Below are positions 1-64,000 of a DNA stretch of 64,000 bases, one piece after another. The translations under genes were made by a program, and so were the position numbers. Under the pieces are notes generated by a model that was given only the letters and a program-made list of their open reading frames with translations, had not been told where the DNA came from and made no database searches. The DNA is from Diadema setosum (Eukaryota; Echinodermata; Echinoidea; Diadematoida; Diadematidae): positions 15,381,696 to 15,445,695 of the forward strand of contig NC_092686.1 in assembly GCF_964275005.1 (NCBI RefSeq). Reading direction: 5' to 3'. Every line of letters starts with the position of its first letter. Position 1 is the first letter of the stretch.

Positions 1-1533
1 TGGAAAGGCTCAATAAAGTCTTGATGATACAGTTCATTCCCATTCTAACGAGCATGGTTGTAATGAAATGCTTGTTACAATGAATTAGAATTTCCGGTCA
101 AGAGATTATAATTTTCATACATTTATGTACTTTGCTGTTCAGCTATAACAAAATTTTGATACAACAAAAGAACCTGAGGACTTTGTTATAACAGGAGTGC
201 GCTATACGAGATAATTTTATGCTAAAATTGTCATTAATAATTTCCCTTACTCTCTCAGCCCATTTCCACACTGACAAAAAAAAAAAAAAAAAAAAGAGAG
301 ATGAAGGGGGCAGCACAAGTCACACCACATCACACACAAGGTGGAGAGGTGGCACTCGCTGTGCAGTGTATGAAAGTTTCTCTTCCATTGAACGTAGTGT
401 AAAATGTATTACCAGTATGTACACGAGAACCCTGTTACGAGAGTGTAGGACCAGATTTCTGTTGCATAACAAAATCTTGTTACTGTAAAAGCTGTTATTT
501 TCAGCATACGGATATTTTCAGCATACAGATACATGTATTTTCATGAATCATCGGGTTGCAGACATTTTTGTGAGCTGTTTTCGGGAATGGACACTAATGC
601 TATCAAAAGTGCAGTTACCCCAGCGCATGGTGACATTTTTGAATGCTGTTAAATTTGCAGTCCAACAGTGATTCACAAAATTCGCAAAGATTAAACCCTC
701 GCAAAAATAGCAGCTTGTACATACGGTTTTTAGTATACCGGTACATTCGTGTCAACAACTCAATATCTTGCAAAGAAGCAAGTGAAAAATGTAAAAGTGT
801 AGAATCTGTAAACTGAAGGTGAAAACATGAAACTACAATTGCAGCATTCACAGCAAATATTCAGTTTATTCAGAGGTCTGCAACTGTTAGAAAGATGCAT
901 GCACAGTATTTGGGGGTGGGGAAAATGTTCTGCTCATTTTCAGTGACGAGCTTTCCGCCAACCTTACAGGAGGGGAAGTGTCTCCTAGTCAACCAAAGAA
1001 ATGGTCGCATCTTCTCCAACAACCATGTACAGAAGTGGGTAGATAGTACACTGTGCACTACATGCTACAGTGGATGCGAAACCGACATACACTGCACAGT
1101 GTTGCCTCTCAGCTTCAAGTGTGACGAGGTGCAACATGCACCATGTATGTGTGCGTGTAGCATATTTATAAAATGTGTGCATGGCTGTGAATCCTTGAAG
1201 TATGTACACTGTATCAGGAGTACGAGGATTGTCACCCCTCCCCCCAATGTTAAAAAAATTTGTACCAGGAAAATCTCGTACTTGTGTTCGTTCTGGCCAT
1301 GAGACAGTGTGTGCATTGCTGTGTAAGAATATTGAATATGTACAATATGCATATTGTAAGAATATATAAGGTATTGTTATAGCCCATGATAATAATGCCT
1401 CGCGTCAAAAACAAATGATTTCAGATCATTTTGTACAGTAGAAACTAATGTTGGTCATCACCACATTCAAACAATCCTCACCCTTACTGAAAAATGTACC
1501 AAAGCAGTGAAATGAGTAACAAAGTAAAATATT
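1..1533. other. no gene seen; short low-complexity tracts
   Basis: No exon with a recognisable protein match on either strand. It contains a poly(A) run at 276-294 and AT-rich unique-looking sequence; the open frames present are short and overlap on both strands without codon character. Confidence 0.6.
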
Positions 1534-3072
1534 TTAAAGGGAAAGTATAGTATTTGATGAAGTTAGAATTCAGCTTTTAACTTTTTGTAAGATACCTGGA
1601 AACCACTTTATTGTCCCCGCCGAACGAGTTCGAGCAGGGGACTATGAAACGGGCTCCGTACGTGTGTGTGTCCGTGTGTCCGTCCGTGTGTCCGTCCGTG
1701 CGTCCGTGTGTCCGTGCGTCCGTGTGTGATCAAAATGTTCAAAATGCTACTCCTTCGCCATTTCTAACCCGATTTTGATTCTGTTTGCTTTATATGATAG
1801 CACTACATAGGAGCTTTGAAACTTCTATACAGAATTTCAGTTGTGACCTTTGACCTTGACCTTTGACCTATATTGTACATTTTGCTTCAAAATGCTACTC
1901 CTTCGCCATTTGTAACCCGATTTCGATTCCGTTTGCTTTATATGATGGCACTAGGTGAGGGCTTCAAAACTTCTACACAGAATTTTGACCTTTGACTTCT
2001 TTGACCTTTGACCTTGATTTTTGACCTATATTGTACTTTTTTGCTACAAAATGCTACTCCTTCGCCATTTGTAACCCGATTTCAATTCCGTTTGCTTCAT
2101 GTGATGGCACTAGGTGAGGGCTTCAAAACTTCTACACGGAATTTTGACCTTTGACTTCTTTGACCTTTGACCTTGATTTTTTACCTATATTGTACTTTTT
2201 TGCTACCAAATGCTACTCCTTCGCCATTTGTAACCCGATTTCGATTCCGTTTGCTTTAAGTGATGGCACTAGGTGAGGGCTTCAAAACTTCTACACAGAA
2301 TTTTGACCTTTGACTTCTTTGACCTTTGACCTTGATTTTTGACCTGTATTGTACATTTTGCTACCAAATGCTACTCCTTCGCCATTTCTAACCCGATTTC
2401 GATTCCGTTTGCTTTATGTGATGGCACTAGGTGAGGGCTTCAAAACTTCTACACAGAATTTTGACCTTTGACTTCTTTGACCTTTGACCTTGATTTTTTT
2501 TTACCTATATTGTACATTGGCTACAAAATGCTACTCCTTCGTCATTTCTAACCCGATTTCGATTCCGTTTGCTTTATGTGATGGCACTAGGTGAGGGCTT
2601 CAAAACTTCTACATAGAATTTTGACCCTTGACTTCTTTCACCTTTGACCTTGATCTTTTTACCTATATTGTACATTTTGCTACTAAATGCTACTTCCGGC
2701 GGGGACATATTTTACGCACCGCGTAATTTCTACTTTTCCTTGTGAAATGTTAAAATGCATACGATTCTAAGAGGAATTCAAAGTTTATTTGATGAAATTT
2801 GGTTTTGACATGGCTGATATCCAAAAACGGAGTAAAACAAAGTCATCCTAGTAAAAGGTGGGTCCCACCTTTTAGTAGGATCGCTTTGTTTTGGATACAT
2901 TGTATCTCGGCCGTTTCAAAACTAATTTTCATCAAATGAACTTTGAATTCCTTTTACAATTATATGCTCTGTCATACTACATAACAGTTTTCTCATCTCA
3001 AAAAGATCTTCATTAAAAAAAATGTTGAAAACCTCAAGCCCCATCTGAACCAAAACTGTACCATCCCTTTAA
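1534..3072. mobile_element. foldback MITE, copy 1, split by an inserted array element
   Basis: The outer parts (1534-1611 and 2708-3072) match two other copies in this window (55381-55825 and 62595-62989). All begin TTAAAGG and end CCCTTTAA. The right part is a long near-palindrome centred near 2864 on GGTGGGTCCCACC, with arms carrying AATTCAAAGTTTATTTGATG and its complement. The left 78 bp align with the left ends of the other copies, and homology resumes after 2707, so the 1612-2707 element sits inside this one. No coding capacity; non-autonomous DNA element of unknown superfamily. Confidence 0.75.
1612..2707. repeat. TIR-bounded tandem array, ~159-bp unit
   Basis: The ends are inverted repeats TGTCCCCGCCG / CGGCGGGGACA. 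A (TCCGTGTG)n-like stretch at 1660-1725 is followed by about six units that start at TGCTACTCCTTCG (1745, 1893, 2052, 2211, 2369, 2529, with a stub at 2688), spaced 148-160 bp. Each unit contains the dispersed motif GACCTTTGACCTTG. It looks like a transposable unit with an internal satellite-like array. Confidence 0.85.
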
Positions 3073-3271
3073 GCAGAATTGATATACAACTGATTATATG
3101 ACAGTCAAATATTTGTGAGTTACGACTGTCTTGTGTTGTCTCGAGGTCATCATACATGATAACCTAGGGGAAATAATAACTGCCATTTACGCTTTAGACT
3201 TTGGTAATGGAATATCTTACATTATTCTTTTTTCCACATATGAAAACCATACTAACTTGTATATACACGTG

Positions 3272-3512
3272 TACTGTATACGCCATATATTTCGCGAGAC
3301 ATTTTAGCGAATCGGGACTTCCAAACAATTTCGCGAGTGATTAAATTCGCGATCGTGGAGTCCTATACTGAGCGGAGAAATGTATACGCGTACGTCACAT
3401 TCATATTGGCGCTAGAGTCAATATTTTCCTTTGTTTTTAATTTCGCGAATAGCAGCCGACTCGCAAAATTCGTGAAAATAAAAACCTTGCGAAATCTTCG
3501 GCGTATAAAGTA
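3272..3512. mobile_element. small MITE with GTATACGCC/GGCGTATA ends
   Basis: The ends TACTGTATACGCC and GGCGTATAAAGTA are imperfect inverted repeats. The inside is rich in TTCGCGA/TTTCGCGAA motifs. A degenerate relative occurs near 5080-5205 (GTATACGGCGTATAC), and loose TTCGCGAA-rich matches occur near 26960-27010. No ORF. Confidence 0.6.
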
Positions 3513-4353
3513 GCACACAAACTGCCTCAACTCGTGAATACATGTACTGTATGCAGGAAAATAATCTAATCTTTCAAGTTAAGTCGTGAAAACCTAGGGA
3601 ATTGTGAAATTTGGAAGGGCAGCCATGTTCCATGTCTTGTTCACAATGACAGTGATTGTAACTCTGATATTAATGTCATTTGATATGACTTGCTCAGTCT
3701 TCACAGATCACTTGCTTTGGTTTTAGCACTCTAATTCCAAATCCTCCAAGGGATTTACTACATGTACATTGTATTTCAAAAATCTTTGTCCGGTACAGAG
3801 GTATGGAACCACAATATGCAGCAGATACTGTACTTGTAAAGGTAGGCCCTACATTTACGTAGTTATGTGGAATAACTTCACATTTACCTTAAAGGAAATC
3901 TTAAAAGGCTTTTGCCTTTCTGTTTTAAACAGCATATCTAAATCAGCTCATGTACATGTTTGGCAAAATTGACAAAAACAAATTTACTTTGCATTTCATG
4001 TTTTATTCATTTCATGTCATTGTGTAGCATTACATCATATAATTGATGTGTGACATAATATTCTTTACAAGATGCAAATAGATGTGGTCATAGCAACACA
4101 GCTGATCTGCGGAAGAAAACACATGCACAATGAATTGATTCATGGAAAACAAAAAAGCAAATATATATATATATATGTAAACATATTTTATAACAAAAAA
4201 AAAACAACAACCTAGAAATGTTGCTGTGGGGACTGGGTTGCCTCCGCCATATTGCATTATTTTCGTAAATGGTCTTCAGTGCATCTTGCCAAAGCATTTC
4301 TAGGGTATGGAGAAAGTGTAATTTCAGCATAGAATAGCATAACAGAAGTATGA

Positions 4354-4660
4354 TTTTACCCTGACCTCTGACCTTGACCTTTCACCTCATGACTTTAACT
4401 ACAAAGAGATCAATGTCAGGCAATACATGTATATGCACCGAGTTTCATGAAGATACCAGCGTCATTTCCAAGATAGGGAGGAAAAAGGTGACATTTTAGC
4501 ATGTTCACTTGACCTTTGACCTTGCACATGTCGAGTTTTATTTGGATACCTCAAATGGTTCTTAAGTTAATTTGTCCACAAAATTAAATACGGATGAACA
4601 AACGTATGGATGGACAACTCAAGAACATAATTTGCCTGTGGAGCCACTTGGTGGTAGAGG
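4354..4660. repeat. dispersed repeat with GACCTTTGACCTTG motifs
   Basis: It contains the CTGACCTTGACC/GACCTTTGACCTTG motif twice, with a 'gatggacaactcaag' and 'gccacttggtgg' tail of the kind seen in the longer arrays at 1612-2707 and 20316-22404. It is probably a single decayed unit of such a repeat family. Confidence 0.5.
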
Positions 4661-5232
4661 CATTCTTTAAAAAAAAAAGAAGGAAGAAATGAAGCAGCCT
4701 TGTGCACGAATAGTCAACCAGAACTCAAAGGGACAAATAGAAACAAGTCTGACATTACTCATGGACAATTACAATTCCCAGGCAGACGTCTGAATCAACC
4801 ATGCACACTGGAAGTATAATGACAGAATCCACTTTCCGTGTTGGTGAACACAGGATTGATGGTGCTCTCTTGAATAACTAACAGGTAGACACTTCATCTT
4901 CCATGAACTGGTTAACTGATTTCTAGGCCCTCTGAATACGCTTGAAGTTTTGCGAATTGGGACTTAGGGATAATAATTTCATGATCGAAAACCACACTGA
5001 GGGAATAGAAAGATGTACATGTATCATGGCTTTCTATGAAAAAAAAAAAAATAATTGTGGTATCCTACCTTGGATACCATATATGATGCATTTCTGTTGG
5101 GTGGCAATATTTTTGGGAGTTGCTAATTTCACAAATATCAGGGGACTTGCAAAATTCATGAAAATAAAAAATTGTATACGGCGTATACTATGTACACTGT
5201 TCATGATGAACCAAAAGTCGTACCCAGATTTG

Positions 5233-5325
5233 TTAACCCGTTGAGGATGGATTGATTTTGCTACAACACGCATTTCCCACAGACACCTGCCCGAGTATAC
5301 TCTGGACTCGTCCTCAATGGGTTAA
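5233..5325. mobile_element. 93-bp palindromic MITE
   Basis: Ends TTAACCCGTTGAGGA / TCCTCAATGGGTTAA are inverted repeats; the interior carries CCCGAGTATACTC. A related copy is at 59186-59273 and a partial one at about 31609-31675. Confidence 0.7.
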
Positions 5326-6326
5326 GACGTTGATACAGCATTTCTGCTCAAATACCAATATGCTACTATAAATACTTCTCCATCAATAACAACAATAACT
5401 GGGTTTGTCGAACATGTACATTACAACATGACAAACACATAAGAACATATTGTGTCAATGTAAACAATCTGTCAACCATCTGTGGGGAAGACGACAACCA
5501 AATTTTCTTAATTTCATGTCAAATTAGATGAAATTTTCATGTGTGTGTTATTCTGTCTTATTTTACTTCACTCATCAGAGTAAAGTAGAACATGGTGTAG
5601 AATTGCACATTAAAGAATACAATGGACATTCATATCATGGTACAACTCTGGTCAGAAGACCTCCTTACAGATGAACACACGAGACAATAAAATAGTTTCT
5701 CTTGTAGAAAAAGATTTAGTTTCTGCACTTCAAACTAGGCCCTCTTTCATAGGTTCATTGTTTTATAAATAATAAATTGCTTCATAAATAATAAATGACC
5801 CACTATGGTTTTGTTTTTATAAACCTGAAGTATAACATGTCACCCTGATAAAAATTGTGTCAAATAGTGGCCAAATGGGGGTTCTGAAGCAAACTAATCC
5901 AGATGAGAAAATTCAATCTTCCATGTGCAATCTTAAACAACTTTACTGACACGAGTGGTAGCTCATGTGGAAAAAAGAAATGTAGAGAACATGACACAGC
6001 CCACGTTGTGTGTCAAAATTCTGTACCTTGTCAGTTACAACAGATATTCACCTTCCTTTCTGATAATGTTCATCAAAATAAGCATGACCAATGTTGAAAG
6101 ATTTGCAATGAACAAAGGCTTCAAGGAAATCATCTACTCTCTTGCCCAAATAATGGCCCGTGCTGCGTGGATCTTTAGATCAAACTGTGTCAGCAAAGTT
6201 CATGCTTGTTTTCGTAGAGGATACAGCTAGAGATTTGGAGACAAGTCGGACTGGTTAAGGAGTCAGTCTGGTGACATTCTTTTCTTCACATGTTCATGTG
6301 TTACGTCTTCCATTGTTGCCTCAAGC

Positions 6327-20900: not shown

Positions 20901-23900
20901 AGGGACATCTACCATCTAAGAATGGTCACAAACAGACAGATACAGTTGAACCTCTCGTATCCGGACAAGTCGGGACCGGGGCTCATCCGGATAAGGGATT
21001 TGGCCGGATACGGGAGACTCAATGCTTTATAATAATAATAATAATATCAATTTATAAAGCGCAAAACCTATAGACATATATTCTTCTGCGCTGCAAAAGC
21101 TTCTGGGGGGCGTTTCATCAACGAGTTCGTCGGAGATTTCACCGACAAATTTGCTATCAGCCAATCAGACCAAGGATTTCATTAGCTTTTAACAGTTGTC
21201 AGTGTAAATCCTTGCGTCTGATTGGCTGATAGCAAATTCGTCGGTGAAAACCTCCGACGAACTCGTTGATGAAACGCCCCCCTGATGTGCTTGATAATAA
21301 CGAACAGTTAAAAGAAGAGATGTGTTTTGAGTCGTGATTTAAAGACTGCTACTGTTGGGGATTTACGGACTTCTAGTGGTAGATCATTCCAGAGTTTGGG
21401 AGCTGCACAGGCAAATGCTCTGTCTCCCAATGTTACTTTTGTTTTACATGTTGGAATCTGTAAAAGAAGAGTGTCCTTAGAACTGCGCAAATTATGAGTA
21501 TGTCGATGAGATTTAAACACTAATAATTCGGATATGTAACTGGGGGCTTGACCGATAAGTGACTTATACACAATCAACAAAATCTTAAACAATATTCGTT
21601 TACGAATCGGAAGCCAGTGTAAATCTTTCAGAAGAGGAGTAATCCTTGAAAACCTAGGTTTGTTACAAATAAGCCTTGCACAGGAGTTTTGGACTCGCTG
21701 CAGGCGCCCAACTTGAGAATCAGGGAGTCCATATAATAACCCATTACAATAATCCATCAATTATACATGTACATATATACATACACATGTACTGATGTAG
21801 CCCATTGTAGTACCACATGTAGTAATGTGTATACTGCAACCTTTTCATTGTTACATTTGGGGATGTTTCGGGATGTTGAAATGTCTGAAGGTAAGCAATT
21901 TGGAAGGAAATTTGATGCAATGTATGTTAATCATATTGGAAGTAATATGTAATTCATGTATGTTTGGGTAGGAGTTCTCAAGGAGTTGGGAATCCCCCTT
22001 TCTTCCCGTAATTATTATAAAAAAAATCACGGCGAGATTGCGTCCGGATAATAGAGAGATCCGGATAAAGGGAGGCCGGATAATAGAGGTTCAACTGTAC
22101 ATCAAAAGTTATGAGCCATGAACCAAACGCGCCCTAAAAACTTAACATTGGGCCCTAAAGTTCATTGACCTCTGCCTGTCACCTTTGACCTTGAGGTGCC
22201 CTTCATGTTTGGTAAAATGTGTAACTTTGTATTTAACCACTCTTCCCTCCAAGTTTGATTGAAATTGAAATCCTCAGTAGAGAGTTATTCAAGTTTTTGT
22301 AGCGTTACGGACAGACGACGGACGGACTGACGATGGACGGACCGACGACGAACGGACAGACGCCACAGGCGATCCCTTAGTCTCCCCACACCTCCGGTGG
22401 GCTCGACAAAAATAACTGAAATAAGAGAGAGTTAGGGTTGTAGTTTCGTAGATATAAGGGAGAAGATAGGATTCATAGATTTGGGTCACTCAGGCAATCT
22501 GTGCAGAAGTATCAATGAAAACGTGTTCTATTTCACAGTGAAAGCAGCACCTGTCAAAAACAAAACTGCCAATAGCTCAATTTTGGTTTTGTTGTAAGCT
22601 GCCAAATTTTAGATTTAAGACAAACTATAAAATTTTAGTCGGTAACCAAAATAACATATTTTGGTCCATTACAGAATCCTTTACAACTTTTTGTGGGTTT
22701 TGAGCTGAATGGTCAATACAATGTATGGCAATTCATATTCATATAGAGGTCTAGTGTAACTAGGCCTACATGTTACCACAAATGCCGAGTGACAGAATCG
22801 CTACAGTCATAATTTGTACTAGGCTGGAAAGATACAAATTTGGTTGATTGCCAACATAGGATATCAATTTTATCGTAAAGCCTAACAGAAAATAATATTT
22901 ATGATAAAAATACACATTTATTTTTCCCCCATATCTCTTTGACAAAATATGGGGTATCACAGTACACAATCATAACAGGTTGCTTTTTCAAGTTGAAATT
23001 TGAATTCTCATGCAAATGTCTAATTTGTATTGTGTAAATAATTTTCAGTGCACAGCACAGAGTACTTTATACCAGCATAAATTTTCTTTTCATTTTGATT
23101 GTACAAAAGCAATTACTGGTACTAGCCCAACCAGGCACTGTGCACAGGAAGGAGTCTGTACAGCAACAGGGCTGTGTATATAGTTAAAAAGCAATAGTAA
23201 TCTGATCACCTATCTTTTCCTGAATTAAATCACAAGAAATGGTGAAATGAAGTTCATTGCAGCTTGCCAGGCTCCCCTGAACCTTCCTGACACAAAAGGG
23301 GAAACACTAGCACCCACCACTGGCAAAAAAGAAAAAAAGAAAAGACAAACAAACAAACAAACAAACGAACACCCCCCCCCCCCAAAAAAAAAAAAAAAAA
23401 AACCAAACAAACAAAAAGGACAAACAACCAAAAAACAAAAACAAAAACAAAAACGAAAACAAAAAACCCAACAACAGCCAAACAAACAAAAAGCAGCAAT
23501 TTCACGGACTTTGTATTGTGCTTGTCGTGCTTGTGCTGGCTCATGTGGCCTCTGCTATACATGTAGTATAGCCTATAGGGGTGCTGGACAGCAACAAAAA
23601 AGACCGAATTCACAATTTCTGTGTACACTTTCATGACAAGCAAACATTCAAAGCCGACCGACTGCTGAAAGTGAAAAGAATTATTATCAATATCATTTCT
23701 ATAGTATGACAAAAATGGTGCTACAAGAAAAAAATAGTACAAAACCAAGCATGTAGCTATAGAACTACATGCCAATAAAGCAAGAAATTACAAATGCTTG
23801 TCACAGGACCTACAAAGGAATAGACTTAGAGTCTTACCGGTACGTTTTATCTACTCAAGTTTGATGACAAGATACCTCAAGATGACCTTCACAAGACTCC

Positions 23901-31500: not shown

Positions 31501-34500
31501 TCTCATTATGGTGTGCAATAACTTTGTGTTTAAAATTCTGCATTTTGTTCTTCTAGGCTGGTCAATTATGAATTGATTGACTGGCTGACCATTTGGATTT
31601 CATTTATAGAGTATACTCGGGCAGGTGTCTATGGGAAATGTGTGTTGTAGCAAAATCAAACCATCCTCAACGGGCTAAGCTTCTACAAGACTTTGATCAC
31701 TGTGGCTCTGTTTCTTCACAGGAAGAAGAGAGTAAGATGAGAGAAGCTCTGAGGCAAGAATGGAGAGAAAAGCAAGAGAAAATCAAGAGTAAGCCTATTC
31801 TTCAAGTTTATTGATTGCTTCCTAAGAATTGTAAGTTAATAATGTTAATGATGATTACAGTTTTATGATAATTGTGAGTCATCTTCACATAGAAAAGAGC
31901 ATTTTGTACGCTGCTTATTTTAGCATTATAAGCCTGCTGCAATATAAAAGATAGTGTAGAATTGGAAGTTTTGTTACCTTCGCCAATGGGTTTATGTCTT
32001 TGCTGGCATTGGCTTGTTTGTCTCTTTGCAAAATAGTTCAAAAAGTTGCGAATGGGATTTGGATGAAATCCAGTTACAAGTTGATAATGGCACAAGGAAT
32101 AGACAATGAAATTTCGGTAATGATCCAGATCACCGTCTTGATTCAGGAATTTGAAAAAAAAAAAAAAATTGAAGGATTCTATATCATTTTGAAATACATG
32201 TAGGGCTATTTTCACTATGTAATATATTAGTATGCTTTCAGAGGTTTGCACTCTCCAAGTGCTTTTCTATTCTAAGAATCAGTGTGTGTGTGGTGTTTTT
32301 CTTTTACCATTCTTACATGCAATCAGCTATAACCTTACATCAACTTCAGTTGAAGTTTTGCATTTTGTTGCAGTATTGGTGCAGTTCGAGGTTCTGTAAC
32401 TTATGGATTTTAAAATGGCATCATGAAGACACCAAGCTTTTAGAAGAAAGATGTGACAGGCAATCAACTGTATTAGAGTGACCTAGTGTCATTTCAAACT
32501 GCTGTGTTTTCCCTTCCACAGATGAAGAGATTGACATCACATACAGCTACTGGGATGGATCTGGGCACAGGAAAAATGTGAAGGTGAGTTTGAAAACAGA
32601 GTCATCTCTTCTCCTTTAAAACAGAATTAGTGCAGGTCACATTTCTTTAAAGGAGTTTATTGCAGTATGTATCAGCTGGAAGCACTTTCAGTGGTTAGAT
32701 CCTACAACAACTAAATATTCCTGGGACTGTCTCATGAAGTCATCACACAAAAGTCTCTACATAAATCTCAGAATGGCCAAAGTCGCTCATATGTAGCTAT
32801 ATGAGACTTTAAAATCCATTTCTTGAAGTCTCATAAGTGTGTCTTATGAGCGAAAAGTCTCTCGTAAGACTTTCATGAAACTTACCCCTGGTGTGCAAAT
32901 TGCCTCCCATGTGCTGCACTGAAATGAGAAACATATGAGAATGATGTGAAGTTTTATTTTGTTTTTGTTGTAGATGAAGAAAGGTGATACAATTCAACGC
33001 TTCCTTCAAAGGTGCCTTGAGGGTCTCAAGAAAGATTTCCATGAACTCAAGTGAGTGAACATACTTCATCTTACCACTGATTTCTTTTTGCACAAATTTG
33101 AAATGGGGATTTTGTATGATGGAACTTCAGTGCCTCACAGAGAACTAACATTCAATTTGTTTCTTCAGAGATAGTCATTTTTATATGTCCTTTAACTATA
33201 GTTTTAGAAGAAATTGACAAAAGTTAGCCCATTTTAGACTCAAAGAATATTTGAGATGATTCACAGGGTACCATATGTGTTATTCAATGCATGTTCCATC
33301 TGAGCGTTTATGCATTGTAAAGCTGTATGCTTTTTCTGGGTCAGCTTTACCAGGGCTTGACACTAACTCTTTTCCCTGGTGGCTCATTTGTACTATTAAA
33401 ATCTGTAAATTTGACATTCTGGTTGCCTGAAATAAAAGGGAACAGAAGAATTCATTCTAAAACATACATATAGTTGCCAGATCAGGCCACCAAAAGATAA
33501 GCTTTTTGGAAATTTGGTGGCCGGACATCAATTTCTAGTGGCCGTGAGTCTCCAGCTACCACCAGTTTCCAGCCCTGGTTATACTTTATATTACTAAACT
33601 GAGTAGTTTTGCTCTTAGATCACATGAAAAGGTGTTTTTATGTTGGGCGAGGGACTCCAAGGATTGCTGAGTCATTAATTATGTTCATTGTGTGATTGCG
33701 GGAAAGAAGAAAGTGACGAGTGATGAATGCCATCATGATTATGGTCAACATTGCCGTACTTCCAGTTCAGAAAGTGCCTATTAAAACTCTTGTCTTTATG
33801 AACCAGAGAGAAACAGCAATTCATGAAGTGCTACCATTGTTATGAATTTAGAATTCCCCCATTCTGTGGATGAAATCTTATCATTTCAAATCAAAGCAGA
33901 TATCAAACTAATTGCTTACTAATAAAAATGGTATATTTTTTCTTTATGCAGATGTCCCTCTATTATTCCGTATTTTTCTCACTCTAATCATTCATCCATG
34001 TCAATGTCTTGTTTGCAGAGCTGTGAGTGTTGAACAGATGATGTACATCAAAGAAGATCTCATCATACCTCATGTAAGAGACTGATTATAAACAACAATA
34101 ACATGTAATTGGTTGGTCAATTTTGTAAATAATTTGTCATCTCTGATCAAATCTATAACCTTGGAAAACACTCAGTGAGAGATGAATGGAAAGCACTTTT
34201 GTTGAAAATATACATATTCTTTATTTTTCTTTGCATTCCTTGGTAAAGGAAGTCGTTGACTTTTCTGGAGGATTGATTTAAGCTGGGTTTTGACATGCAA
34301 CAATCAGTTTTACTGTAAAAGTGGATATTTTTTAAGCTATGCCCAGTACGATGTTAGATGTTCAGTAAGATGTTCATGTTAGTGTTTCAGATTTGTGCAA
34401 AATGCCTGTCAAAGATTACTTTGTATTAAACATGCCAGTGATAGTGACAAGATATTCAGATGGTGTGGCACAGCCTGTGTCATCTAAATATCAATGAAGC

Positions 34501-40580: not shown

Positions 40581-41161
<581 letters not shown>

Positions 41162-45867: not shown

Positions 45868-54617
<8,750 letters not shown>

Positions 54618-55380: not shown

Positions 55381-55825
55381 TTAAAGGGATGCCGTATTTT
55401 TGGTTGAGATGGGGCTTCAGGTTTCCAACATTTTTTTATGATTTTTTGAGATGATAAGAAACCTCATATTATGAAAATAGTATGAAAGAACATATGATAA
55501 TTCTAAAGTGAATTCAAAGTTTAATTGATGAAAATTGGTTTTGAAATGGCTGAGATATCCCAAACAGAGTGATCCTAATACTCACTGTAAAAGGTGGGAC
55601 CCATCTTTTATTATCTTTTATTATGATCGCTTTGCTTTTGAATGATTACATGTACTTTGTTTTGGGATATCTCAGCCATTTAAAAACTGATTTTCATCAA
55701 ATAAAGTTTGAATTCCTCTTAGAACTGTATGCTCTTTAACATTTCAAAAAGTAGTTTAAGTATCTTGCAAAAAGCTAAATGCTGAGTCCTTACGTCAATC
55801 AGTGCTATATTTATCATCCCTTTAA
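55381..55825. mobile_element. foldback MITE, copy 2
   Basis: TTAAAGGGATGCCG... to ...CATCCCTTTAA, with the central near-palindrome of AAAGTTTAATTGATG / CATCAAATAAAGTTTG arms. Same family as 1534-3072 and 62595-62989. Its right end abuts the next element. Confidence 0.8.
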
Positions 55826-56630: not shown

Positions 56631-58166
56631 CGTGCTCGAACACTGGCCAGAGACTCCAACCCCAAGCACCTTCTGATCTGGAGATTCTCCCGCCTGAAAC
56701 CCCTAGCAAACGGGAGACTCTAACTTGCGCACATCACGAGCGCAAAGTCCCTTGCGGTCTAGGGTTCTAGATGCTCTCTCGCGCTATTTAAAGCTTATTT
56801 TTCAACATACAATGAAATTAAGTAAGAAATCATTTCAAGCGGGAGAAATTCAATCTCAAGCGGGAGAACGGGAGATTCTGCAAAAATGGGCTTTCGGCGG
56901 GAGATCTCCCGTCGAAAGCGGGAGAGTTGGAGTCTCTCGAGTTGGGGTCCACGAGCCAGTCTGGCTCGTGGACCACCCCGGGGTATACCAACTTCTATTG
57001 TTGAATATAGGGCCTAGATAAGTTTTAGAAGTAAGATAGGAAAAAAAAGTTTGTGAATGAAACGTAGCTCGACCGTCAAGACTATTTTATTCATTTTTTT
57101 TTGGCAACACTGCTTGAATGTATATAGGCCTATGCAGTTAAAAAGCGCTAAACCGCCAGTTATACATTCTCCCCTTCCCCGGACGAGAAAAATACAAAAC
57201 CAATGTACACACACATACAAAATTACGGTGGCCCACAAGTTATTCTCCCCTTTTCTGGATGATAAAAGCACATAAAAACAACAAAAAGCTTACACACTCA
57301 CAAGATTTGCATAAAAATGTGGTGGCCCGACAGCTATTTTTGGTGCCCCCGGGCCACACCACCGCTTATGTCATGCTGATTTTACACTAAAGGGTATGTG
57401 TGTATACCTGTCACATAAATATTTCAAGTAGCCCCCTTGCACTATCCCAAACCCATGGGTCCCCCCCCCCCCGATCCTGAAGGAAGGCAAAATGGATAAA
57501 AAAAGGATAAAAAAAATCAACAACTGATATGTTTCGATCTATACAGCCATACATGAAAAAGAAGAGTATTCTCATTGAAGTTGTCTGTTCATCCAGTCGG
57601 CTTGTGCCGAAAGGGTGGGTTGGGTGGTGGCGCGTCGCGTTAATGGGAACACCACCCTTCGTCCAAAGCCCCCCCCCCCCCCGGTTTTGCCGAAAGGGTG
57701 CGTTAGGAGCATTGGGTCGCGTCGCGTTGACTGGAACCCCACCCTTCGTCCAAAGCCCCCCCCCCCCCCCCGGTTTTGCCGAAAGGGTGCGTTGGTACTT
57801 TTTCTCATGTAATATTCAAAGACGAGTTTTGAATTTATATTCAACCTTCAAACAACCATTTCAAAGAGGCTATCGTCCGGATCGGTTTACACTCTATTAC
57901 CACTTGGTCTACAGCCAGTTGGTCTAATGGACTGTTTAATAGGACCTATCAGTTGGTCTAATAACCAGTTGGTCTAGTCATCATTTCGTCCAATTACTGT
58001 TTGGTCTAATTATTATTTGGTTTAATTACTATTAACTTTGGTCTACAGTCAATTCGTCTAATAATAGCCATTTGGTCTATTTTTGGTCTATTATGAGTTG
58101 GTCTAATTCCATTTCGTCTAGCTAATCATCAAATGGTCTAAAATAAAACCAAATTTGTCCAATATA

Positions 58167-58955
58167 AAGGCCCGGTCCCACTGGCCGATGGACACAAAAC
58201 GTATGCAGAAAGGACACAGCGGACGAGCAAAATTTCGGGGATGGCTCCATCCGCTTTCATCCGCTCCAGAAATTGACAGAATTGGCGAAAATTTGCGAAA
58301 ACAGAACGGAAAAAGAACGGACGTGGGTAGGTATGTAGCGGGGATGTTAAACGGATGTTCATCGGAAGCCTAGCGGATGAAAGCGGATGGAAGGGGATAA
58401 CAGCTCCGAAGGGGTTACCGGAGATAATTGCGAAACGGACGCATAGCAGAAAAAGCGGATGCAGAGTGGATGCAGAGCGGATGCAGAGCGCATGCAGAGG
58501 GGATGCTTTCGAAATGCTTTATATACGAGATGCATACGCTTACATCCTCTCTATTAACGTGCTATTAACGATGTAAAGACGTTCCACGTACCATATCTTT
58601 CCTCCCTCTTTCCGTTTTTAGCTGCAGCGGATGTGAGTTGCGAGGATGCCCAGAGGATGCAGAGAGGATACAGCGGACGTTTAAGGGATGCCGCACGGAC
58701 ATACAACGTTTGTTGCTCGTATGTCGCGGATTTACATCGTACACAGCGGAAAGTTCATCCGTTCTAAAAGTTTTAAGCAGCTTAAAACTTTTTGCGCGGA
58801 TGAAATCACAGTGGACGGATGCTCGATGGATAGAGCGGATGAAACACGTATGCGATGGGTACACAGCGCATTCGTAGCGTTTCCCAACGGATGGCAAGAT
58901 TTTTTGTACGCTTTACATCCTCTTTGCATCCGTAAGTGCAGTGGGACCGGGCCTT
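58167..58955. mobile_element. 789-bp MITE with AAGGCCCGGTCCCACTG ends
   Basis: TIRs AAGGCCCGGTCCCACTG and CAGTGGGACCGGGCCTT. The inside is built of degenerate GGATGCAGAGC/GCGGATG repeats on one half and CATCCG on the other. It interrupts the left arm of the larger foldback element: CCAATATAA before it and AATTTAGTGTACAC after it are contiguous in the right arm's complement. Confidence 0.8.
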
Positions 58956-58991
58956 AAATTTAGTGTACACATCAATAAAAAGGGCCCCCGC

Positions 58992-59029
<38 letters not shown>

Positions 59030-59185
59030 GCCCAGTTGTTCATACAGACGAAACGATGATTAGACCAGGAGGCTGGCTATTAGACCAAATGACAATAAGA
59101 TCAATGGTTATTAGACTAAATGGGTGTAGACTGTAGACTAAATGATGATAGACAGAGGCTAGACCAACTGGGCAATGGACCAAAT

Positions 59186-59273
59186 TTAACCCATTGAGGA
59201 CGAGTCCCGAGTATACTCGGGCAGGTGTCTACGGGAAATGTGTGTTGTAGCAAAATCAGTCCGTCCTCAACGG
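59186..59273. mobile_element. short palindromic MITE (TTAACCC family)
   Basis: TTAACCCATTGAGGACGAG... with CCCGAGTATACTCGGG and ...CCGTCCTCAACGG. Same family as 5233-5325, opposite orientation. It sits next to the inner end of the large foldback's right arm. Confidence 0.65.
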
Positions 59274-59879
59274 ACTGATGTGTACACCAAATTTATATTG
59301 GACAATTTATCTTAGACCATTTGATGATTAGACGAAATGGAATTAGACCAACTCATAATAGACCAAATCGGTATTTGATGATATGAATTGGTGTTAGACC
59401 AAAAAATAGACCAAATGGCTATTATTAGACGAATTGACTGTAGACCAAATAGTAATTAAACCAAGTAACAATTAGACCAAACAGTAATTGGACGAAATGA
59501 TGACTAGACCAAGTGGTTATTAGACCAACTGATATTAAACAGTCTATTAGACCAACTGGCTGTAGACCAAGTGGTAATAGAGTGTAAACCGATCCGGACG
59601 ATAGCCTCTTTGAAATGGTTGTTTGAAGGGTGAATATAAATTCAAAACTCGTATTTTAATATTACATGAGAAAAAGTACCAATAACGCACCCTTTCGGCA
59701 AAACCGGGGGGGGGGGGGGCTTTGGACGAAGGGTGGGGTTCCAGTCAACGCGACGCGACCCAACGCTCCCAACGCACCCTTTCGCCGAAACCGGGGGGGG
59801 GGGGGGGGGCTTTGGACGAAGGGTGGTGTTCCCATTAACGCGACGCGCCACCACCCAACCCACCCTTTCGGCACAAGCC

Positions 59880-61692
59880 CATCCAGTCTATCTTCAAAAA
59901 ATCTAGATTTTTATTCCATGATATGAGGTGGGTGTTTTCCATTCACATGCATTAAATGATTTCACCAATAATATGGTTTAATAACTAAATAACTCCTTTA
60001 TTTTATGCATGGGATTCTTATACATAGCACACATACTCAGGGAGTGACCGCTCTGCCAGGTTTGATTACAATCAATAATGTTGTCAAGTCAGCTGATGTA
60101 GGCCCTATCAATACACTGAGCAAGATATTCAGTTGTATAAACATTTTAGTTTACCACTCAAACCGTAACTCAATGGATAGGCCTATACAGGACATTGATT
60201 ACCACCCCCCCCCCCCAAAAAAAAAATGCAACAACAACAACAACAACCCCCACTCAAAATAACATGTTCATAATCATTCTTTAAAGTCAAATTGTTTCTC
60301 CACAGACTGATGAAAATTGATTTGAATAGAATTAAATTTGAATTGCTGAAACTACACTGGTCTTACACTCGATTTATTTTCATCTTTAACTTGACATCTT
60401 CATATAAGCAAAAAAAAAATACAAACAAAAAGATACAAAATATGATATAGAGCGAGTCATGGCTTAGAAAGTGTGTCAGCATAATCATTATGTACATAAA
60501 AGACAATTCTCTATAACGTGTGAAATATGAAGAAACCGCAAAAGCAAAGCTTGTAACCGCGGCTTCCAGGAAAAAATACTGATGTAAATTTGTTTTGCAA
60601 TGGAGATATGACACAAAGTACTAATGACGAAACTGTATGAAAGCTAAACTAGCAAGGTACAAAGGGCAGAAGAAATAAAAGAAAAGAGAGAGAAAACGGA
60701 AAAAAGAAAAAAAAAGAAAAAGAATAAGAACTGAGCAAAAGAAATAATCGCTTTGGTTACACACAAGTATACGAGCATATCATATCTAGAACCAAAATCA
60801 TAGCAAGTTCAAAGTATGAGTACTAATGTAGTGATTATATGGGAGCATAAAACCAGAGGTAAAGTAAGCTTACACTGCAAATAATGATCCGCCGTGCATT
60901 GAAAGATAAGTACAGTACTATATTAATCCCGACCGACCCAGTTTCCATCATAACATGTGCAAAGTTAGTTCAACTTAGTGTATAATCTTCCAGATGATAG
61001 AGAAACTCAAACAAATATCTTTGATCCAACTATATGTTTTTGTCTGAAGTGATATTTCTTGTGTGTACATGATTGTCAGCTATCTCATGTGAAATTAAAT
61101 ATCATACATACATCGGATCTACAGGGTCCATCAACACATCAAACATTTTATTTTACACAAAATGACACCAAAAAGCTGAATGAATGTTATGTGGAAGTGT
61201 CGTGTAAAAGCTCTTGATGATGAGGAGAGTATATTGCACATAAAAGTAACTGAGCTCTTTTGAAATTAATTGATTTGTTTTTAAAGCCAAAAAAAAAAAT
61301 AATAATAATTGAAAGGAACATCAAAGGAATTGCTGAACGAAGGTTTACGTTATTGCTAACCGTTGCTTTCCTATCTAGGAGTAACATCAATACATAATTC
61401 AAGTTTAGGAAAATCTTATTTTCTGTCATGTCGCAACCTCATTGTTGACAAGGATGTGGTTGGGACGCATTAGTCTTGGCATCAATATGACTTTTGAAAC
61501 TAATTGTAGATGATCATTCTGTAGGTTTAATCTCTACTTTTTTCTTTTCCAAGCATTCTCTTCCTTTTCTCGTCACCAAGAGAAAAAGAAAGTGAAACTG
61601 CTATATGTAGCATTACTGTTTGCTAATGTCATTACGATAAAGACATGTATTCATGACATGCATGTGTGTTTTCTTTCTTCATTCGCTTGAAG
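59880..61692. other. no gene seen
   Basis: AT-rich. A C/A run with CAACAA at 60204-60246 and a GA-rich stretch at 60660-60730. Short frames only, with no recognisable protein. Confidence 0.55.
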
Positions 61693-62290
61693 GTTTTATG
61701 ACATACAAATGCATGTTGATTTGTGTTGATTCATAGTACCCTCAACATCACTTCTGCGGTGAAACGGATATCTAGAAACATTCCATATATTTTTAAATAA
61801 TTTTTCTTCTATTTTTCTTGTTCAGATTACTTGGATACGCTCAAAAAAAACAACAACAACAACAACACAACAACAACAACCTTCCAAACCAAGATTCTAG
61901 CTGTGACCTCATCTGTCAATCATTGCTAAAGTACTGATAATTATGTTTAAGAAAAGACATTGGAGTGCACTTTTCCCTCGACTCAGCATAACTTACATGT
62001 TTCTGTGATATTACTGTGACTAACAAGTTTAATGACATGGCGAGGGAACATGCAAGTATGCTTGGTCTCGAGGAGGATGCATTCCAGTGTTTTTGGTTAA
62101 TCATATTAGTACTCTAGACTGATTGACAGATGAGGTCACAACCAGAATCTTGGTTTGGAAGGTTTTTTTTTTTTTTTTTGTGAGCGTATCCAAATAATCT
62201 GAAGATAAATAGAAGAAAAATTATCTAAAAATATATGGATTAACACACATGAATCAATACAAATCAACAAGCATTTGTATGTCATAAAAC
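61693..62290. repeat. ~600-bp imperfect palindrome
   Basis: GTTTTATGACATACAAATGC at 61693 and its complement ending at 62290 bound two arms that pair almost to the centre (near 62000-62040). Shared blocks are TAATTTTTCTTCTATTT, GGATACGCTCA, CCTTCCAAACCAAGATTCT and GACCTCATCTGTCAATCA. The left arm has an extra (CAA)n patch; the right arm has poly(T) there. No ORF of note. Confidence 0.85.
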
Positions 62291-62594
62291 ATTTCATGTA
62301 GCGAGACATACTGACAGACGAACTTGTTTCTTTGTGATGGAATAATTCATATTGCTCCCCCTGCAGTCATGGCAGTGTCTTGAGAATTGCACTTGACGAC
62401 CGGGATATAGATAGATTGATTGATTTCCTTCCTTTATTCACGTATAACTTTATATTTGTGCAATTTTAGTAAATTATATAGTGATTGATATTTTACAACA
62501 AAATACTACATAAAATTCATTAACTGCAGAAGGAGACATTAAAGCACGAAACAGAAATGAAAAACAGTAATACTCAAAAAAAAAATGAATAGAC

Positions 62595-62989
62595 TTAAAG
62601 GAATCGTACAGTTTTGGTTGAGACTTAATTTCAGGTTTCTAACATTTTTTGGTGAGATAGTGAGAAACCTCTTATGAAATATGAAAGAGCATGTAATTCT
62701 ATGAGGAATTTAACGTTTATTTGATGAAAATTGGTTTTGAAATGGCTGAGATATCCAAAAGAAGAGCGATTCTAATAAAGTGTGGGACCCACACTTTATT
62801 ACGATTGCTTTGTTTTACTTTGTTTTTGGATGTTTCAGTCATTCCAAACGCGATTTTCATCAAATAGACTTTGAATTCCTCTTAAAATGGTATGCTCTGC
62901 ACTATGTCATAAGTGTTTTCTTAGTATCTCGCAAAAATTTAAAAGCCCAATTCTCATCTCCACCAATACTGTACGTACCATCCCTTTAA
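62595..62989. mobile_element. foldback MITE, copy 3
   Basis: TTAAAGGAATCGTACAG... to ...CGTACCATCCCTTTAA with the GTGTGGGACCCACAC-type centre. Uninterrupted member of the family at 1534-3072 and 55381-55825. Confidence 0.8.
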
Positions 62990-64000
62990 GTTGATCTTGC
63001 ATTAAAAGGAAACATAATTAGATCTATGTATCGTTATAATTATGGTGATATTGTTATTACTATTACATGTATTATCATTATTGTGTCAATATTATCGTCA
63101 TTATCATGATCATCATTGTTATTACAACAACTATTACTATACTACCACTAACTACGTACTATACTACTACCAGGGCCGGGGCATGGGGGGGGGGGGGGCA
63201 TAGGGGGAGGGGGCCATTTTAATAGGGGGAGGGGGCGCCCGGGTCCCGACGATTCATACATTTTCATTCCACCCATATGAATATTCATCACTACCTGTTT
63301 ACAGAGCACAAAGTTCATGTGCATTATACACTCAACGCAACACACATACATACTCGATACTGTACGAGTACGTACGTATTGTGTATGTAATGTGACTGTC
63401 GTCTCTTGCTAGCTCGCTGGGGAGAGTTGAATGAAAGAGAAAGTAGGTGAGTGTAAAAATATTTCTGAAACTTGATAGCAGTAGGGTTATTTTTTTGCTT
63501 CTCGTTCCTAAATCCAAACAGTCATCCAAACCATCTAATGTGATACGTATTATTACAACATGAGACGTAAGAAGTATGCTATTCATTTTCACAGTAGAAT
63601 ATCACTTCGTCCTTCGACCCTGTTTGTGCACTCCACGTACGGTGTAGTGGCTCTCGTCTGCATTGCTTTGCTCCGCTGTTGGCTGTTGACTGTATCCCCA
63701 TTCATACACGTACGTAGCAATACTGTGGAAAGCTCGCAAGACGAGGTTCTCCTTGTGCCCTGCTCGTTGCAGCCATTCCATCCACGGTTCTTCTCCCTAT
63801 CTACAGTCAGTACAGACAGTACAACACCTTGATGGTGGTAGTCTGCTAGCTGCTTTCCTCAACCTTGAAAATTCTAACTCGGCCTTTCCACTGACACTGT
63901 CTGAGACTGAGCTGTAGCTGTCTTTGGGTTTGCTCTAAATTTATTCCCTTCTCTTCTTACTCCTGGACCTGTTGGTGATACTCGATACATAGGGTGCATG
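62990..64000. other. no gene seen; ATT-rich and G-rich tracts
   Basis: A degenerate ATT/ATC triplet region (63040-63165), a G-rich tract (63172-63240), then more GC-balanced sequence to the window end. An open frame at 63560-63832 shows no family match by eye. A gene beginning past the edge cannot be excluded. Confidence 0.5.

Follow-up and report, generated by a model that had tools for sequence, protein, structure and literature searches.

A foldback DNA transposon was found at positions 57599 to 59879 of the window (the whole 64-kb stretch of Diadema setosum DNA analysed), where it went in as a single piece and left a 9-bp target duplication. The element belongs to a mobile, non-autonomous family of about 1.4 kb, present in hundreds of copies in the host genome. 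The family is probably (we put this at about 0.82) a cut-and-paste foldback mobilized in trans by a Mutator-type (Phantom/Muta-like) transposase, which would bind an array of short sites, here called the ladder, in its arms.

Architecture of the foldback element

The inverted repeat began and ended exactly where a preliminary description of this DNA had placed a foldback with near-perfect inverted arms. Left and right arms were identical in 533 of 545 aligned columns (97.8%), with 12 substitutions and 9 gaps. In a self-comparison, the top minus-strand match scored 771 bits, whereas none of 100 dinucleotide shuffles of 56800-60700 exceeded 43.7 bits. The left arm occupies 57599..58167 on the plus strand, with a remainder of about 20 bp (58955-58974) past the first of two nested elements; the right arm occupies 59276..59879 on the minus strand. 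Between them lies a middle segment (58975..59275) containing an A35 tract (58993-59027), further ladder motifs and a nested MITE.

The left arm (plus strand throughout) opens with outer unit 1 (57599..57682), which carries the terminus GGCTTGTGCCGAAAGGGTGG and closes with 14 C. It is followed by outer unit 2 (57683..57771), opening with GGTTTTGCCGAAAGGGTG and closing with 16 C, and by the truncated start of a third unit (57772..57793; GGTTTTGCCGAAAGGGTGCGTT). A non-repeated spacer (57794..57882) leads from the outer units to the ladder, with a 97% inverted match to the right arm over 57792-57941. The inner domain (57883..58167) comprises CGGTTTACACTC and then the ladder of TTGGTCTAAT-like motifs. 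On the minus strand, the right arm consists of inner domain and ladder (59276..59591), outer unit 2 (59706..59792) and outer unit 1 including the right terminus (59793..59879). The outer ends of the family are GGCTTGTGCC. In the left arm the outer units measured 84 and 89 bp, and in the right arm both measured 87 bp; all four close with 14-17 C. The preliminary plan of two blocks, a unique segment and a ladder was thus recovered together with the truncated third block; its poly(C) block ends were also seen, while its block length of about 105 bp gave way to 84-89 bp.

The outermost 70 bp have the same sequence in both arms. Compared arm to arm, outer unit 1 was 100% and outer unit 2 94.5% identical, and units 1 and 2 within one arm were 84.1% (left) or 82.6% (right) alike. 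The doubling of the unit therefore predates the parting of the arms.

Ladder motifs were counted at up to 3 mismatches with the core required. The left arm contained 15 and the right side of the element 23, one of which (59193) lies on the edge of the nested MITE; the chance means in 500 base shuffles were 0.8 and 1.4, in agreement with the motif ladder first described. The period is 15-16 bp and the window consensus is TTGGTCTAATAACAAT. Long terminal inverted repeats with internal tandem repeats, the hallmark of the foldback type, are therefore present. The arms are composite, with an inner domain resembling the ladder end of a second family (family D, below) and an outer domain formed by a second terminus in tandem, as two complete copies and one truncated copy.

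Folding of four stretches within the 84-89 bp units gave no significant hairpin (z -1.36 to -0.39). An inverted match inside outer unit 1 was suggestive (5 of 1000 dinucleotide shuffles equally good), and that inside outer unit 2 had no support (58 and 108 of 1000 shuffles equally good). Rfam, at gathering scores, and ARAGORN returned no matches.

Insertion site, nested elements and surrounding sequence

A perfect 9-bp target site duplication, CATCCAGTC, lies flush with the left arm at 57590..57598 and flush with the right arm at 59880..59888. This duplication and the two nested elements had been missed in the preliminary description. Nested element 1 (58168..58954, 787 bp) has 16-bp inverted termini AGGCCCGGTCCCACTG and a duplicated TAA, and contains an 11-bp tandem repeat AGCGGATGCAG; its unoccupied site is visible in the right arm. 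We take it to be PIF/Harbinger-like from its appearance. Nested element 2 (59190..59273, plus strand) is an 84-bp TTAA-type MITE with TTAA on its left side only and with relatives in the window at 5238-5325 and 31609-31676. Both nested elements are younger than the foldback.

The foldback is overlapped by 17 frames that reach 75 aa; twelve of these were scanned, and none of the twelve had a Pfam domain above the curated cut-off. The rest of the 64-kb window had no match to the foldback beyond poly(A) and the nested MITE. The window also contains exons of acyl-CoA dehydrogenase (ACAD9-type) and GMPPB genes. Elsewhere in the assembly, contig C102 (15,708 bases) carries COX1 and COX3; in-frame TGA is present in both, and a 421-base stretch of COX1 has ATA where echinoderms have Ile, features that, set beside echinoderm sequences, suggest an echinoderm and perhaps a sea urchin.

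Several other repeats were recorded. Two copies of one element, with ends TACAGTTGAACCTCT and CCGGATAATAGAGA repeats, lie at 20941-22099 and 51894-52314 and are 97-98% alike where they match. Older palindromic MITE-like elements are present at 2739-3073, 55381-55749, 62593-62991 and 61782-62239. The first three are about 69-77% alike and are probably the scattered MITE copies mentioned earlier for this DNA; within the window, the palindromic elements had no match to the foldback arms. A striking microsatellite of 84 perfect ACA copies occupies 40675-40926.

Copies in the host genome

The host genome (912.7 Mb, 102 contigs; the window is C2:15381696-15445695) was searched using the left arm as query. 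Among the 40 candidates scored of 765, 40 near-full-length matches including the window were obtained, the 39 other loci having 91-95% identity with gaps counted, together with 3 partial matches. The exact 21-bp terminus occurred 545 times (264 + 281), its reversed control 0 times, and the exact 25-bp start of the inner domain 283 times. Among the first 100 listed terminus places (contigs C1-C3) there were 34 convergent pairs with a median of 1406 bp (492-5777), and 32 places were unpaired. The arm and ladder patterns had no matches in viral contigs; in the virus or prokaryote collections, the nested-MITE pattern had no matches and the arm pattern none in genome contigs.

Twenty arm loci and five terminus pairs (the four longest and the shortest) were examined. 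Both ends were present at 16 of the 20 arm loci, which with the five pairs and the window gave 22 two-ended elements; no second terminus was found at L010, L017, L023 and L027, and these four did not enter the count of duplications. Perfect flush duplications of 8-9 bp flanked 16 of the 22 (9 bp in 12, 8 bp in 4). L018 and L026 share flanks as a segmental duplicate, so 15 of the 16 are independent, and apart from this pair the duplicated target sequences were all different. Left and right flanks of different elements matched by at least 8 bp in 2 of 462 cross pairs, which is explained by the same segmental duplicate. An exact target duplication was absent from the remaining six (L015, L021, L025, L063, L064 and L066), and a second element at L022, the 23rd, had no flank match of 8 bp or more. 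All eight copies tabulated carried the ladder in both arms.

Multiple copies with flush target duplications are the second feature expected of a foldback-type element. The preliminary description had held that several copies with the same arms and flanking duplications would support a mobile family, and a single copy a local inverted duplication; the former was observed, with 545 exact termini in place of a single copy.

Two insertions were noted within other family copies. L062:1196-5574 is a second foldback, whose ends carry the 9-bp direct repeat GAGAAAAAG and whose arms consist of GGATAACTACC-like repeats. One of its ends, CGTATCCGGG, resembles the end CGTATCAGGA of a FLYWCH-MULE group described below (group A), and blastn against that group gave no match. 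L065:924-1884 contains non-LTR-type reverse-transcriptase frames, as judged by eye.

Age and likeness of the arms

Arm likeness was compared over the outer 400 bp with gaps uncounted and the L018/L026 pair left out. The two arms within a copy were 95.7-99.2% alike (mean 97.5%, n = 11), against a mean of 97.3% for arms of different copies (216 comparisons); the ten non-window copies rank high in likeness to the left arm of the window, and this may inflate the between-copy value. For every one of the 11 copies, the most similar arm elsewhere in the family (best of 36-40) was a closer match than the copy's own second arm. Since likeness within copies is no higher than between them, family age accounts for it better than a local repair event. 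The recent arm duplication or gene conversion proposed in the preliminary description is accordingly unsupported.

A shared ladder in a FLYWCH-MULE family

Genome matches were obtained to PF10551 (MULE; 27) and PF04500 (FLYWCH; 14). Two sets of FLYWCH matches have MULE matches downstream of them in the same orientation, namely group A and a set on C7 and C10, designated family D.

Family D has at its upstream end about 30 copies of a 16-bp repeat, TAGACCAACTGGTAAT, which is the reverse complement of the window ladder. This ladder is one-sided, with 25 of 25 matches on one strand in L069 (the C7 copy) and likewise 25 of 25 in L070. Motif counts were 24 (L069) and 23 (L070), with consensus TTGGTCTAATTACCAT against TTGGTCTAATAACAAT in the window. 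As a control, 300 shuffled motifs gave 0.4 matches in L069 on average, although one of them gave 18, as compared with 17 for the motif itself (up to 1 mismatch). By blastn, the window arm matched the C7 copy in pieces of 65-77% identity (best E 7e-14).

The D ladder ends at GGTTTATTGCCG. In all eight D sites read by eye, unrelated flanks start there, allowing for small variants, and abut GGTTTATTGCCGCTTGG or a close variant, so the D ladder end is mobile. The D ladder had 42 genome matches (40 candidates scored of 754). Four of the 14 FLYWCH matches lie 0.4-5.4 kb downstream of a D-ladder match on the same strand, at distances of 386 bp (C24), 391 bp (C10:1604), 1.2 kb (C7) and 5.4 kb (C10:746). 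By simple arithmetic, about 0.01 such cases would be expected by chance from 42 sites and about 0.1 from 754 candidates. A MULE match follows further downstream at two of the four sites (the C7 exon scored 31.6 bits on re-scan, cut-off 27.6) and is absent at C24 and C10:746. FLYWCH and MULE exons thus stand behind the ladder in two D copies, which were read from the ladder end only, and the outer units are not shared.

The outer terminus of the foldback was found within 1.5 kb of 0 of 27 MULE loci (up to 4 mismatches) and did not occur in the D sequence examined (up to 6 mismatches). Frames of at least 90 aa in the four long pairs, inspected by eye, showed no transposase. A transposase-bearing copy with the outer ends was not found in a search covering the 27 MULE loci, the D stretches and, of the 34 pairs measured on C1-C3, the four long ones. 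As regards the autonomous relative that the preliminary description proposed to look for, a FLYWCH/MULE family shares the ladder, and the outer termini were not found in the stretches of it that were read. The likeness between the outer terminus and the D terminus (GGYTT..TGCCG) is weak, 62 of 3000 shuffles being as good, or 350 of 3000 when the leading GG was kept. For the unit starts, whose likeness to the D terminus is also weak, 2 of 3000 shuffles were equally good, or 22 of 3000 keeping the leading GG.

MULE groups A and C (L058-L061, L067, L068) had no outer terminus or ladder over the 8.5-13 kb read. Elements of group A start with 41.6 copies of a 16-bp repeat of their own, GGACAACTCCCCCGGG (L067:372-1069). 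The four FLYWCH/MULE copies of this group, on C18 (twice), C20 and C2, are 98.6-99.3% alike, so group A was probably active recently. Ladder motifs occurred within 1.5 kb of one of the 27 MULE loci (L054, on C9), where a degenerate ladder foldback is present some 1 kb away from the frame; this proximity may be due to chance and was not counted as evidence.

Proposed mechanism and alternatives

Transposons of the Mutator (MULE) superfamily produce target duplications of 8-11 bp, typically 9 bp, and the perfect duplications of the foldback (12 of 16 of 9 bp, the others of 8 bp) fall within this range. Judged from sequence features, the foldback likely belongs to this superfamily. A FLYWCH- and MULE-bearing transposase of Phantom/Muta type would be supplied in trans, bind the 16-bp ladder sites, pair both arms and cut at the GGYTT..TGCCG termini, and the element would then be inserted at a 9-bp staggered cut. 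A role for the ladder as a putative transposase-binding array is plausible because an element carrying FLYWCH and MULE exons terminates in the same ladder.

The most serious alternative, to which we assign a minor share of the probability, is membership of a different superfamily that makes duplications of 8-9 bp (P, hAT, Merlin or Rehavkus); the ladder would then have been captured from a MULE and would have no role in transposition. The P superfamily, which includes Galileo, is characterized by duplications of 7-8 bp and a THAP/P transposase. The absence of the outer terminus within 1.5 kb of the 27 MULE matches and from the D stretches read favours this alternative, as does the origin of foldback arms in different superfamilies, Galileo being a P element (PMC3688188, in part). 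It is opposed by the predominance of 9-bp duplications, by the ladder in both arms of every copy tabulated, and by the opening GG..TGCCG of family D, weak as its likeness to the outer terminus is.

Slightly less probable again is an origin of the ladder as host-protein sites or as a satellite seed instead of transposase sites. Foldback tandem repeats can seed satellites, as described for Tetris (PMC4079207), but a transposase-bearing family has the ladder here at its mobile end, where the motifs run in one orientation. A local inverted duplication or assembly artefact, compatible with the single copy in the 64-kb window, is refuted by many copies on many contigs with target duplications, by the substitutions and gaps between the arms and by the presence of nested element 1 in one arm only, and carries a negligible probability.

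For a Mutator-type foldback, the outer domain may have arisen by what we term 'terminus stacking', in which a D-like ladder end (GGTTTA + TTGGTCTAAT) was shifted inward behind a tandem second terminus that is now the cut site. We advance this tentatively, at rather less than even odds. If it is true, the ladder survives as an internal, enhancer-like putative binding array, and long foldback arms grow by the addition of new ends outside old ones. The second terminus stacked outside the ladder end is the detail of interest, and the modular succession of outer tandem termini, spacer and ladder could be used for reconstructing arm growth. Foldbacks often go unclassified, their transposase being unknown; here a family of about 1.4 kb in which no coding capacity was found is linked through its 16-bp ladder to a FLYWCH-MULE element of the same genome, and binding and transposition assays could address directly what purpose the arm repeats serve. 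With their high copy number, poly(C) tracts and inverted arms, the elements would be likely sites of rearrangement and assembly trouble.

Comparison with known systems

The TU elements of the sea urchin Strongylocentrotus (Nature 306:342, 1983, cited in PMC4079207) are reportedly long-armed foldbacks, with an outer domain that contains 15-bp repeats and with duplications of 8 bp. On this description, they may be the nearest of all. A literature search that covered few subscription papers, with Repbase and Dfam outside its scope, found no Mutator foldback from sea urchins or other echinoderms. The published systems below were compared from portions of the papers cited.

Galileo, a P-superfamily foldback, resembles the window element in its long, internally repeated arms and differs in its 7-bp duplications, THAP-domain P transposase and repeats of about 210 bp (PMC3688188, PMC3573991). 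Its arm repeats were shown to bind the DNA-binding domain of its transposase (PMC3688188), and its arms hold several demonstrated binding sites (PMC3688188, PMC3573991), as against putative ones in the window ladder. Tetris of Drosophila virilis shares multi-domain arms, 8-10 bp duplications, a lack of coding capacity and the absence of a known autonomous partner, but has 220-bp arm repeats (PMC4079207). Plant MULEs with tandem terminal inverted repeats likewise carry more than one terminus in tandem at each end, with an internal terminus lacking a flanking duplication; they repeat whole long terminal inverted repeats, whereas the window foldback repeats units of 84-89 bp (PMC3310237).

Muta1 of Aedes aegypti is a Mutator-like element named 'type2 Foldback', with a 10-bp terminal motif followed by 12-bp repeats with 3-4 bp spacers, and Muta5 has 15-bp subterminal repeats (PMC5225508). 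Both generate 8-9 bp duplications and have many non-autonomous derivatives; autonomous copies carry a gene for a MULE transposase, which includes a FLYWCH finger in 13 of 14 families (PMC5225508). As compared by description, the Muta1 repeats match the 15-16 bp period of the window ladder, and the foldback shares with Muta1 and Muta5 the 8-9 bp duplications and a short terminal motif followed by subterminal tandem repeats (PMC5225508). Muta arms are 145-151 bp long against about 570-600 bp in the window, and the outer poly(C) units of the window foldback are not mentioned for Muta in the portion of the paper covered (PMC5225508).

Tm1, a Mutator/Foldback family of root-knot nematodes with a Phantom-type transposase, generates duplications of 8-10 bp, mostly 9 bp (45/53), and has composite arms of 13-15 bp tandem repeats, those of one element being 93.15% alike on average (PMC3169594). 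It shares with the window foldback the mostly 9-bp duplications, the composite tandem-repeat arms and a nested insertion, and differs in its repeat, CGATTCAGTATCCGC, and in asymmetric 7-bp end motifs outside the inverted repeat (PMC3169594).

The proposal that this was an undescribed type of element finds no support, as published Mutator foldbacks already combine duplications of 8-10 bp with repeats of 12-15 bp in their arms (PMC3169594, PMC5225508). Compared with published relatives by description, with Repbase and Dfam outside the comparison, the foldback looks like a new family of a known kind; the kind is known because Tm1 and Muta1 are Mutator foldbacks of very similar layout.
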